From NCBI GenBank assembly GCA_014859225.1, contig JACUUP010000023.1, forward strand, positions 1 to 15,559: 15,559 nt of DNA, read 5' to 3'. Source of the stretch: Candidatus Aerophobota bacterium (GTDB lineage Bacteria; Aerophobota; Aerophobia; Aerophobales; B3-G15). A program made the translations under genes and the position numbers. The notes under the pieces are model-generated. The model had not been told where the DNA came from. It saw only the letters and a list, made by a program, of their open reading frames with translations, and searched no databases. Position 1 is the first letter of the stretch. The number at the start of each line of letters is the position of its first letter. This document shows, one piece after another, positions 4,880 to 15,540 of the stretch.

Positions 4880-5546
4880 CTTCTTCTAACTCCTTCCCTG
4901 GTAAATTTTCTGCAGAAGGAAGCAAATCACCTTTATAAATCCAAACTTTAACACCAATACATCCATATGTAGTGTGAGCTGTAGAGGACCCATAATCAAT
5001 ATTGGCTCTTAAAGTATGTAGAGGAATTTTACCTTCCTTCGTCCACTCTTTCCTGGCTATCTCTGTTCCTCCTATTCTCCCTTTACACATCACCTTCACT
5101 CCTAATGCTCCACGATCCAAGGCTCTTGAAATAGCTTCTCTCATTGCTCTTTTAGTACTAATCCTTCTTCCTAATTGAAAAGCAATCCTGTCAGCTACTA
5201 TTTGAGCATTAAGTTCTGGTTGGGGAACTTCTTGAACATTTAAAAATATCTTTGCATCAGGAGCATAGCGGGATAACTCCTCTTTTGTCTTATCAATAGT
5301 TTCCCCTTTTTTCCCAATTATTATGCCAGGACGAACGGCAAATATGGTTATCCTCAGTTTGTTGGTAGCTCTTTCTATTAAAATATTAGAAACACTGGCC
5401 TGTTTAAATTTATTTATAAGATGTTCTCTTATCTTAAGATCTGTGTGTAAAAACTTTGCATATTCTTTATTATCGGTATACCAATAAGACTGCCATCCTT
5501 TAACTATACCTATCCTTAACCCTTCTGGATGTATTTTTTGTCCCAA
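4854..5546 (-). CDS. rpsC: 30S ribosomal protein S3
   Basis: S3 lines the mRNA entry tunnel of the 30S subunit. The 230-residue protein starts [13 protein letters not shown]. It has a type II KH domain with the GxxG loop Gly78-Lys-Lys-Gly81 in [12 protein letters not shown], and a C-terminal S3 domain with [20 protein letters not shown] and [13 protein letters not shown]. The start codon is TTG (5544-5546). It is secured by a near-perfect AAGGAGGT Shine-Dalgarno at 5551-5558 (4 nt spacing) and by the invariant MGQK N-terminus. A small hairpin ends within this ribosome binding site. The C-terminal tail overlaps rplP by 26 nt. Confidence 0.98.
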
Positions 5547-11949: not shown

Positions 11950-14900
11950 TCAGGTTTCATTTTTTAAATTATTATATTCATCCAACCTGCCTCTAAAACC
12001 AGTTCCAGCTGGAATTAATCTACCCAAAATCACATTTGCCTTTAATCCCCAAAGATTATCCACCTGACCTTTTATCGCTGCATCTGCAAGTACCTGTTTT
12101 GTCCGCTGGAAAGAAGCAGCAGATAAAAAACTGTCCTTATCTTCCTGAGCTGCTTTTGGAATAGCAAGTAAAATTGGCTTTACCGTGGCAGGCTTTCCAC
12201 CTTGCTCTTTAATTTTGCGATTTACCTCTTCAAATTCAATTCTATCTACCTGTTCTCCCGGTAAATAACCTGTATCTCCAGGTTCCTCCACTTCTACCTT
12301 TCTCATCATCTGCCTGATGATTACCTCAAAATGCTTCACATTAATTTTAACTCCCTGAGCCCGGTAGACAAACTGAGTTTGATTAACCAGATACTTCTGG
12401 ACAGCTCTTACTCCTATAACGTTTAAAAGAACACGCGGATTTACTGCTCCCTCAATAATTTTCTCCCCTGCCTCTACCGTATCACCTTCTGAAACCAGAA
12501 TTTCTCCATCTACCTCATATAAAACTTCCCTTTCGTCCTCACCTTTGACCTTCACCAAAGAATGGCCTTCTCTTTCCTCAAGAAATACTTTTCCCTCAAT
12601 TTCACTAATGAGTGCTTCTTCGCCTTTTCTCTGATGAATTTTGCCTTTCTTTGAATAAGACTGCTTCCTGGGTTCAAAAAGTTCTGTAGCCCTGGGTAAA
12701 CCTTGAGGGATATCACCCCCTCTCCTGAAGATACCTCCGGTATGAAAAGTTCTCAGAGTGAGCTGGGTTCCCGGCTCCCCAATAGACTGAGCTGCAATAA
12801 CCCCTACCGCTTCTCCCAAACTAACTATACGATGAATGGAGAGGTCCCACCCATAACATTTCTGACAAATCCCCAGATTAGCCTGGCAGGTAAGGGGCGA
12901 GCGAACCCTGACTTTTTTAATTCCTGACTTCTGAATCTTTCTGGCAACCTCGTCATTTATCACCTGATTGGCACCCATCATCTCCTCCCCTGTTTCAGGG
13001 TTCATAACAGGGACAGCAGTTACCCGTCCTACAATTCTCTCATCAAGAGGCTCTATTTCCTGTCCTTCCTGTATAAGAGCTTCCATTTCAAAACCATCCA
13101 CAGTTCCACAATCCTCCCCTGTAACTATGACATTTTGAGCAACAGCTACTAATTTACGAGTGAGATATCCTGCGTAAGCTGTTTTTAATGCAGTATCAAT
13201 AAGCCCCTTCCTTCCCCCAGTAGTAGATATGAAATACTCGGGCGCTGAAAGCCCTTCTTTGAAACTTGAACGGATGGGCTCTTCACCAATCCGACCCACT
13301 AACTTTCCTCCTGGAGCTGGATAGAAATACTGCCGAATAACATCGGTGGGAATAGGTAAATCCCGGCGAAATGCCTCTTCCCAAAGCTCGCGTCTGTAAG
13401 TTTCTCTGATGGAACGAGACATCAATCCTCTCATTCCTCCAATTTGACTGAGCTGATTAGCTGAGCCCCTTGCCCCGGAGTGCCACATCATATAAAGAGG
13501 ATTAAGCTTATCCCGGGATACATACTGGAGCACTTTCTCTCCAATTTGTTCGGTAACTCTTGCTACAAGGTCAATTACATCTATATATCTTTCTTCTGAA
13601 GTTATTGCTCCCTCCTCAGCAAGCATTTTATACCCTGCAGCCTCATCTTCTATATCTTCCAATAGCTTGGCTTTCTCCTTAACTACCGGTATATCAGCTA
13701 AAGAAAAAGTTAGACCAGATTTGGTGGCAAATTTAAAACCTAATTTTTTTATCTCATCCAGAACCAAAACAGTCTCCCTATCTCCATAATCTTTCCAGAT
13801 ACGAATTATAAGCTGAGAAAGAGCGGATTTATCAAATGTGCGGTTCTGAAACTCCGTACCCCGGGGAAGAACCTGGTTAAATATAACTCTACCAGGACTT
13901 GTTTCTAACCACATTTTATTCATCAGCACTTTAATTTTGCCATGAAGCTCAACCTTACCCATATCATAAGCCAGTAAAACTTCTTCTGGTGAAGAAAAAG
14001 CCCTCACGGGTTTCTCGTTTTCATCTATCACAAGAGTAAGATAGTAGCATCCAAGAGTAATATCCTGACTGGGAGTAACAACTGGCTCACCATGTGCAGG
14101 AGAAATCAGGTTATTAGGAGGAGACATAAGGAGCATTGCCTCAAGTTGAGCCTCGGTTGATAAAGGAATATGCACAGCCATCTGGTCTCCATCAAAGTCA
14201 GCATTAAAAGAGGCACATACAAGCGGATGCAGGTGTATAGCCGCTCCCTCTACGAGTAGAGGTTGAAAAGCCTGAATACCCAATCTATGTAGCGTAGGAG
14301 CCCTGTTAAGAAGGAGAGGATGGTCTTTTACTACCTTCTCCAGTGTCTCCCATACAAAAGGATCCGCTTTTTCAATCAGGTCATTAGCCCTTTTTATAGT
14401 CTCAGCTTTTCCCTCTCTTAAGATCTCTCCTAAGACAAAAGGTCTATAAAGCTCCAGAGCAACTTTTTCCGGAAGGCCGCACTCATTAAGTTTTAGCTCA
14501 GGACCGGGGACAATAACTGCTCTACCCGAATAATCAACTCTTTTTCCAAGAAGATTCTGGCGAAATCTTCCCTGTTTACCTTTTATAATCTCGCCCAGAG
14601 ATTTAAGTGGTCTTCCCCCTGCACCTAAAATAGGTTGAGATAGCTTCTCATTTTCAAAAAGGGCATCTACCGATTGTTGCAGCATCTTCTTTTCATTTTG
14701 AATAATAATCTGAGGTGCTCCAATCTCTAAGAGATACTTAAGACGATTATTGCGGTTAATAATCCTGCGGTAAAGGTCATTTAAATCAGAATTGGCAAAT
14801 ATACCACTTTCCAGTTGAACCATAGGTCTAAAATCTGGAGGAATAACGGGCAAAAGTTTCAGTATCATCCACTCCGGCTTATTACCCGAACGAAGGAAAC

Positions 14901-15540
14901 TTTCCACCACTTCCAGTCTCTTAATAAGTTTTACCTTCTCTCCCTTTGGCCCTCCCTGAAGAAGCTTCTCCTTCAACCTTTCTTTGAGAAAGTCCAGTTT
15001 TAAATTTGTCAGGATACGCAAGATAGCCTCAGCTCCCGTGCCAACCTCAAAAGCATCCTCACCGTATTTCTCGCGCAGAGCCTGATATTCTTCCTCTTCA
15101 ACGAGCTGCATCGGTTTTAGAGAAGTATTACCCGAATCAATAACTACATAGCTGGCAAAATAAACTATCTTTTCTACGTCATTTCTCCTCATTCCAAGAA
15201 AAAGAGGTAGATACTTTTTCGTATACCATATGTGAACTATTGGGGCAGCAAGTTCAATATGACCCATTCTTTCTCTTCTAACCCTTGAAGAGGTTACTTC
15301 CACTCCACAGCGCTCACACTTAACCCCCTTGTATTTCATCTTCCTGTATTTGCCGCAGTAACATTCATAGCTTTTACTGGGACCAAAAATTTGTTCACAA
15401 AAAAGACCTCCCCTTTCCGGGCGAAAGGTCCGATAATTAATGGTATCTGTCTTTTTTACCTCTCCATGAGACCAGCCCCTTATCTCCTCTGGAGAGGCAA
15501 GTTTTATTTTTATTTTTCCTATAGCATCAGTTTTCCACAA
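11950..15540 (-). CDS. rpoC: DNA-directed RNA polymerase subunit beta'
   Basis: This is the largest RNA polymerase subunit, forming the clamp and much of the active site. At 1196 residues it is close to the Bacillus form. It has the N-terminal zinc site Cys60, Cys62, Cys75, Cys78, lid and rudder region (about 231-345), the catalytic NADFDGDQMAVH with Asp448, Asp450 and Asp452 binding magnesium, bridge helix (from about 767), second zinc site Cys811, Cys885, Cys892, Cys895, and trigger loop QLTLRTFHTGG (926-936). The TTG start (15538-15540) has AAGGAGGT 5 nt upstream, and the following sequence matches the family. Oddities: an extra stretch of about 37 residues at 708-745 before the F-loop, a shortened altered segment at 105-117, and enlarged trigger-loop tip and following linker. 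No SI3-type domain. rpoB is expected just beyond the right edge. Confidence 0.98.
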   Translation of the reverse strand: MWKTDAIGKIKIKLASPEEIRGWSHGEVKKTDTINYRTFRPERGGLFCEQIFGPSKSYECYCGKYRKMKYKGVKCERCGVEVTSSRVRRERMGHIELAAPIVHIWYTKKYLPLFLGMRRNDVEKIVYFASYVVIDSGNTSLKPMQLVEEEEYQALREKYGEDAFEVGTGAEAILRILTNLKLDFLKERLKEKLLQGGPKGEKVKLIKRLEVVESFLRSGNKPEWMILKLLPVIPPDFRPMVQLESGIFANSDLNDLYRRIINRNNRLKYLLEIGAPQIIIQNEKKMLQQSVDALFENEKLSQPILGAGGRPLKSLGEIIKGKQGRFRQNLLGKRVDYSGRAVIVPGPELKLNECGLPEKVALELYRPFVLGEILREGKAETIKRANDLIEKADPFVWETLEKVVKDHPLLLNRAPTLHRLGIQAFQPLLVEGAAIHLHPLVCASFNADFDGDQMAVHIPLSTEAQLEAMLLMSPPNNLISPAHGEPVVTPSQDITLGCYYLTLVIDENEKPVRAFSSPEEVLLAYDMGKVELHGKIKVLMNKMWLETSPGRVIFNQVLPRGTEFQNRTFDKSALSQLIIRIWKDYGDRETVLVLDEIKKLGFKFATKSGLTFSLADIPVVKEKAKLLEDIEDEAAGYKMLAEEGAITSEERYIDVIDLVARVTEQIGEKVLQYVSRDKLNPLYMMWHSGARGSANQLSQIGGMRGLMSRSIRETYRRELWEEAFRRDLPIPTDVIRQYFYPAPGGKLVGRIGEEPIRSSFKEGLSAPEYFISTTGGRKGLIDTALKTAYAGYLTRKLVAVAQNVIVTGEDCGTVDGFEMEALIQEGQEIEPLDERIVGRVTAVPVMNPETGEEMMGANQVINDEVARKIQKSGIKKVRVRSPLTCQANLGICQKCYGWDLSIHRIVSLGEAVGVIAAQSIGEPGTQLTLRTFHTGGIFRRGGDIPQGLPRATELFEPRKQSYSKKGKIHQRKGEEALISEIEGKVFLEEREGHSLVKVKGEDEREVLYEVDGEILVSEGDTVEAGEKIIEGAVNPRVLLNVIGVRAVQKYLVNQTQFVYRAQGVKINVKHFEVIIRQMMRKVEVEEPGDTGYLPGEQVDRIEFEEVNRKIKEQGGKPATVKPILLAIPKAAQEDKDSFLSAASFQRTKQVLADAAIKGQVDNLWGLKANVILGRLIPAGTGFRGRLDEYNNLKNET
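13306..13419 (-). other. Lineage-type insertion in the beta' F-loop (rpoC residues 708-745)
   Basis: Most bacterial beta' proteins read GMRGLM-AKPSGEIIETPI-xxNFREGL just before the bridge helix. Here GMRGLM (702-707) is followed by about 38 residues, and only then by KLVGRIGEEPIRSSFKEGL (746-764), which aligns without gaps to the usual KPSGEIIETPI segment. The inserted stretch begins with a charged, probably helical part (RETYRRELWEEAFRR, 712-726) and ends in a proline- and glycine-rich turn (PAPGG, 741-745). It stays in frame and both flanks are intact, so it is not a frameshift artefact. The family comparison is from memory. Confidence 0.75.

Follow-up and report, generated by a model that had tools for sequence, protein, structure and literature searches.

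How a normally invariant part of RNA polymerase could take on a large extension beside its active site, and what such an extension might do there, is the question raised by a 15,559-nucleotide stretch of DNA (the window) from Candidatus Aerophobota bacterium (assembly GCA_014859225.1, contig JACUUP010000023.1), which comes from a genome of 1.8 Mb in 273 contigs. Few parts of cellular RNA polymerase are as highly conserved as the F-loop and the bridge-helix hinge, whose control of bridge-helix kinking and trigger-loop folding is a proposal that is as yet unproven. A natural 38-residue enlargement of the F-loop, fixed across the uncultured phylum Aerophobota (Candidatus Aerophobetes) together with changes in the hinge, fork loop and D-loop, offers a ready-made test of these proposals.

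The window encodes the RNA polymerase beta' subunit on its minus strand (rpoC, 15540..11950) as a complete frame of 1196 residues with zero internal stops, beginning at a TTG start codon 19 bases off the contig edge. Its translation contains Pfam RNA_pol_Rpb1 domains 1-5 and the catalytic NADFDGD motif, identifying it as a bacterial RpoC. Between GMRGLM and KLVGRIGEEPI, just where the initial annotation had placed it, lies a segment of 38 residues, SRSIRETYRRELWEEAFRRDLPIPTDVIRQYFYPAPGG (residues 708-745; 13306..13419, minus strand), bounded by GMRGLM on one side and KLVGRIGEEPIRSSF on the other. The remainder of the F-loop, KLVGRIGEEPI (residues 746-756; 13273..13305, minus strand), resembles the PQKK(I/L)TGxxGEIIExPI type discussed below. 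In Aerophobota, the residue at the F-loop tip, A748 in Escherichia coli, is replaced by 38 residues, and because the 11 residues after the insert stand for KPSGEIIETPI, the net gain over the canonical loop is 37 residues, falling to about 30 when measured against the 19-21 residue "PQKKITGQVGEIIE" loop.

The same segment is present in all 16 other genomes examined from the order, whose RpoC proteins are 69-82% identical to that of the window. In this sample of 17 genomes from one order, with completeness ranging from 69 to 93%, the sequence that follows GLM, through EEP(I/V), invariably measures 49 residues, of which 23 columns are invariant, with the consensus xRSIRETYRRELWDEVFKRxLNISSExIKQYFYPxSGGRLKGRIGEEPI. 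Pairwise codon comparison gave a pN/pS of 0.19 for the insert against 0.16 and 0.13 for its flanks, values that are rough since pS is near saturation, and the codons of the insert are under purifying selection. Since its length is shared by 17 of 17 related genomes, the insert can be explained without invoking a frameshift or an assembly error, and it is close to certain that the insertion is genuine and restricted to this lineage.

The lineages sharing the insert come down to one. A scan of approximately 85,000 species recovered 16 loci encoding it, all from the Aerophobota group: 14 under the name Candidatus Aerophobetes and two under "Clostridia bacterium"; as the scan accepted only exact matches to short degenerate patterns, strongly diverged inserts may have escaped it. 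The two "Clostridia bacterium" records (JAUWRC010000017.1 and DAOWIY010000003.1; loci L042 and L043) contain an insert-bearing Aerophobota rpoC and match genomes assigned to this Aerophobota order, so their names are probably wrong. In this sense, the insert serves as a one-locus molecular signature of Aerophobota, flagging these two species as Aerophobota-like. When a profile of the insert was searched against 386 genomes, only chance-level scores were obtained outside the order, the best being 22.7 bits; where the loci of these weak matches were checked, none lay within RpoC, which removed spread to other lineages from consideration. Viral contigs scanned for further homologues of the insert yielded none, and a search of the PDB with the same profile returned chance matches only. 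The insert occurs in no bacterial chain among the PDB matches listed, and 6wvj chain D, the best relative with a solved structure, aligned on both flanks with one residue in its place.

An ordinary F-loop/bridge-helix profile was used to catch inserts of any sequence. The spacing from GLM to xF was 14 or 19-21 residues in 139 non-Aerophobota genomes, with none longer (loops that could not be parsed were judged by eye), as compared with 51 residues in Aerophobota, and the position of the insert is occupied in other bacteria by one to eight residues. A wider survey covered 369 other genomes, of which 347 matched the ordinary profile and had no insert, one of two outliers proving to have a normal loop and the other to run into the end of its contig, while the remaining 22 had no profile match and are uninformative on the F-loop. 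Several nearly complete genomes without such a match (G057, G340, G347, G278 and others) are possibly missing sequence. By the species scan, the 386-genome profile search and the F-loop survey, the insert is confined to Aerophobota, and the best explanation is that the enlargement is phylum-wide and vertically inherited, a normally invariant part having been rebuilt once and retained by the whole phylum.

The initial annotation held that nearly all bacteria have a single residue at this point, which is correct for the commonest loop type; it is not universal, given that about one third of the sampled bacteria have a 19-21 residue loop. This spacing mostly goes with PQKK(I/L)TGxxGEIIE, and the common second type, AKPQKK(I/L)TGxxGEIIExPI, exceeds the textbook loop by 5-7 residues and, as in L019, L023 and L113, occurs in about one in three of the other bacterial families. 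The two loops occupy the same position, and the C-terminal half in Aerophobota, (G)G(K/R)LxGRIGEEPI, resembles PQKK(I/L)TGxxGEIIExPI, whereas the PQKK type is about 30 residues shorter and lacks RETYRRELWDEVFKR...QYFYP. With its 51 residues and the KLxGRIGE-like part alone in common, the Aerophobota loop does not belong to the PQKK type. Because its post-insert half resembles that motif, it may nevertheless have descended from such a loop by growth of about 30 residues.

The F-loop region of archaeal and eukaryotic Rpb1 is likewise expanded relative to bacteria, to about 32 residues in yeast Rpb1 (Pol II), and has a GG bridge-helix hinge as in Aerophobota, a feature also found in 18 of 139 ordinary bacteria. 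The archaeal/eukaryotic loop is, however, shorter and unrelated in sequence, and comparison of its motif GQQSVEGKRI...LPHF...KGF with the Aerophobota sequences led us to reject a common class. Another parallel is provided by SI3 and the other beta' insertions of the BEAN/HABAS survey (PMC11515920), which are, like the insert, lineage-restricted, vertically inherited and located in loops of the catalytic subunit near the active site. SI3, a larger domain, interrupts the trigger loop, whereas the Aerophobota insert comprises 38 residues in the F-loop, is predicted to be helical and has no Pfam match. In agreement with the initial annotation, which had set the insertion apart from SI3, this RpoC lacks SI3: its trigger loop, HTGGIFRRGGDIPQGLPR, is uninterrupted, and its tip follows the insert at a distance of about 190 residues. 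Compared with BEAN/HABAS domains, the insert has no Pfam match and a low-confidence helical prediction, and the text of that survey (PMC11515920), which covers seven sites, makes no mention of the F-loop. Lineage-specific insertion into RNA polymerase is thus a known phenomenon, and, as the initial annotation had supposed, we did not find a description of the F-loop as an insertion site in that survey (PMC11515920) or in text searches.

The insert falls within the bridge-helix cap, formed on the bridge-helix hinge by the F-loop, fork loop, D-loop and link; the F-loop touches the trigger helices, and the cap has been linked to catalysis (PMC2993669; PMC2988716; PMC4029172), in keeping with the proximity to catalytic elements originally noted. 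Several parts of this cap are altered in Aerophobota; the beta' residues are compared with the 139 other genomes in E. coli numbering transferred via the profile (positions 2-110 corresponding to 718-826). In the bridge-helix region, STTGGRKGLIDTALKTAYAGYLTRKL (residues 772-797; 13150..13227, minus strand), the hinge changes from HGA to (S/T/G)GG: H777, which precedes the hinge glycine, is replaced by S, T or G in 17 of 17 Aerophobota and is H in 129 of 139 others, and A779G is found in 17 of 17 versus 18 of 139. Since approximately 11-13% of other bacteria have GG, the GG hinge is not a unique mark of Aerophobota; N792Y is fixed in 17 of 17 and found in 0 of 139. In the archaeal polymerase, two hinge glycines are needed for kinking (PMC2988716). 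The tip of the trigger loop and its C-terminal arm, HTGGIFRRGGDIPQGLP (residues 933-949; 12694..12744, minus strand), contain no SI3 and read HTGG(I/V)F(R/Q/H)(R/K)GGD at the tip, with I/V-F in 17 of 17 genomes.

On the side of the beta subunit, fork loop 2 changes from RAGFE to QAKEE in 15 of 15 Aerophobota and in 0 of 20 others, and the D-loop from EGPN to EGQN in 15 of 15, with Q in 1 of 20 others. At H777 and A779, variation is likewise seen in some bacteria that have no insert, and Aerophobota beta shows further unusual residues away from the cap, so this co-variation may reflect shared ancestry only, and a statistical enrichment of cap changes is not claimed.

AlphaFold2 was run twice, on full RpoC and on a 151-residue fragment, with 17 sequences, giving mean pLDDT values of 45 and 40 and approximately 25-50 in the insert. 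Both models place helices at residues 710/711-725 and about 732-739. The first predicted helix, SIRETYRRELWEEAFR (residues 710-725; 13366..13413, minus strand), includes the nearly invariant RETYR..LW.E.F; the second (residues 732-739; 13324..13347, minus strand) leads into the invariant YFYP. The two helices appear in both models, as anticipated by the helix-turn-helix of the initial annotation, but at a pLDDT of approximately 25-50 they hint only weakly at a helical hairpin, and the models, which contain beta' alone, are of too low confidence to place the insert. The amphipathic character once ascribed to the first half was not borne out: its hydrophobic moment of 0.12 is below the mean of 0.32 for shuffled sequences.

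We favor, with a probability of roughly 0.6, the reading that the insert extends the bridge-helix cap as a fixed structural element and thereby tunes bridge-helix kinking and trigger-loop folding, a mechanism that we infer. The insert would form a small helical hairpin packing on the secondary-channel side of the cap, and the cap, so stiffened or re-shaped, would change the ease with which the N-terminal bridge-helix hinge kinks and, with it, the folding of the trigger loop. The speed, pausing or backtracking of the Aerophobota polymerase could thereby be altered.

Another reading is that the insert is a dock for an Aerophobota-specific transcription factor or a shield of the cap pocket against natural inhibitors, e.g., of the salinamide class. 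Several of its invariant residues, charged or aromatic (RETYR, LW, YFYP), resemble an interaction surface, and the site belongs to the bridge-helix cap, which, F-loop included, is the target of salinamide, the drug pocket facing the secondary channel (PMC4029172). Packing on the polymerase itself, however, predicts equal conservation, and we regard a dock or shield as unlikely. Rather doubtful, too, is a broader proposal in which the whole phylum-rebuilt cap, comprising F-loop, glycine-rich hinge, fork loop 2, D-loop and trigger-loop tip, would act as a built-in regulator partly replacing missing secondary-channel factors.

For the projection at the secondary channel and the effects on pausing or channel factors that the initial annotation put forward, the one pertinent observation concerns the Gre factors. 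The N- and C-terminal Pfam domains of GreA/GreB were undetected in 17 of 17 Aerophobota genomes, with positive controls, and genome incompleteness (69-93% complete) is very unlikely to have caused all 17 absences; a DksA/TraR zinc finger was detected in just 4 of the 17, three above the curated cut-off and one below. The insert might accordingly be imagined as a built-in secondary-channel element that offsets the loss of Gre through more intrinsic RNA cleavage or less backtracking, by analogy with what has been proposed for the Gre-less cyanobacterial RNA polymerase, in which substitutions in the bridge helix and trigger loop raise hydrolysis (PMC7026648). Both enzymes combine the lack of Gre with lineage-specific substitutions in the active center and an insertion near the active site, whereas the cyanobacterial insertion is the large SI3 in the trigger loop, other residues are altered and hydrolysis has been measured for the cyanobacterial enzyme. 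Against the analogy, the Gre C-terminal domain (PF01272) is also absent from 41 of 147 other genomes (~28%), whose readable F-loops are ordinary (e.g., G018, G019 and G026), so the insert is not needed for Gre-less life. These 41 genomes weaken Gre loss as the cause of the insert; a link between the two is speculative, and the compensating role improbable.

An insertion that is neutral or inert in structure, became fixed through descent and has no functional effect would suit the occurrence in a single lineage and the tolerance of loop tips for insertions, of which the +5 to +7 version is common. It sits poorly with the lack of length variation among 17 genomes differing by up to 30% in RpoC, with the 23 invariant positions of 49 and with the low pN/pS, and we give it little credence. 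An artefact of sequencing, assembly or frame, suggested by the metagenome-assembled data and by a window that stops just past the rpoC start, or a self-removing element such as an intein or intron, has a negligible probability, as 17 homologues of identical length and alignable sequence from several depositing projects rule out the artefact, the insert has no Pfam match, and 38 residues are too short for an intein, whose splicing domain is well over 100 residues with terminal Cys/Ser and Asn motifs, as opposed to an end in GG followed by K/R.

Other peculiarities of rpoB and rpoC were encountered among the relatives. In G003 (L046:676-7446; JAGGXI010000072.1), rpoB and rpoC form one uninterrupted frame of 2257 residues, an apparent fusion of genes that are separate in its relatives. 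A single TGA lies in frame in the rpoC of G009 (L005/L043), shortly before the F-loop (MWK*GGRGS), at a position held by S in its sister genome G010, and reflects either a sequencing error or a mutation. The rpoC of G002 (L034, ~5290-5368) falls into two overlapping frames in the region of codon 482, the likely cause being an assembly frameshift. In the rifampicin-binding region of rpoB (L032-L046), residues that are otherwise near-invariant differ: all sequences have Y in place of the F of SQFMDQ (E. coli F514), and most have R, T or S in place of the Q of SSQLSQ; the natural rifampicin response of Aerophobota may be altered.
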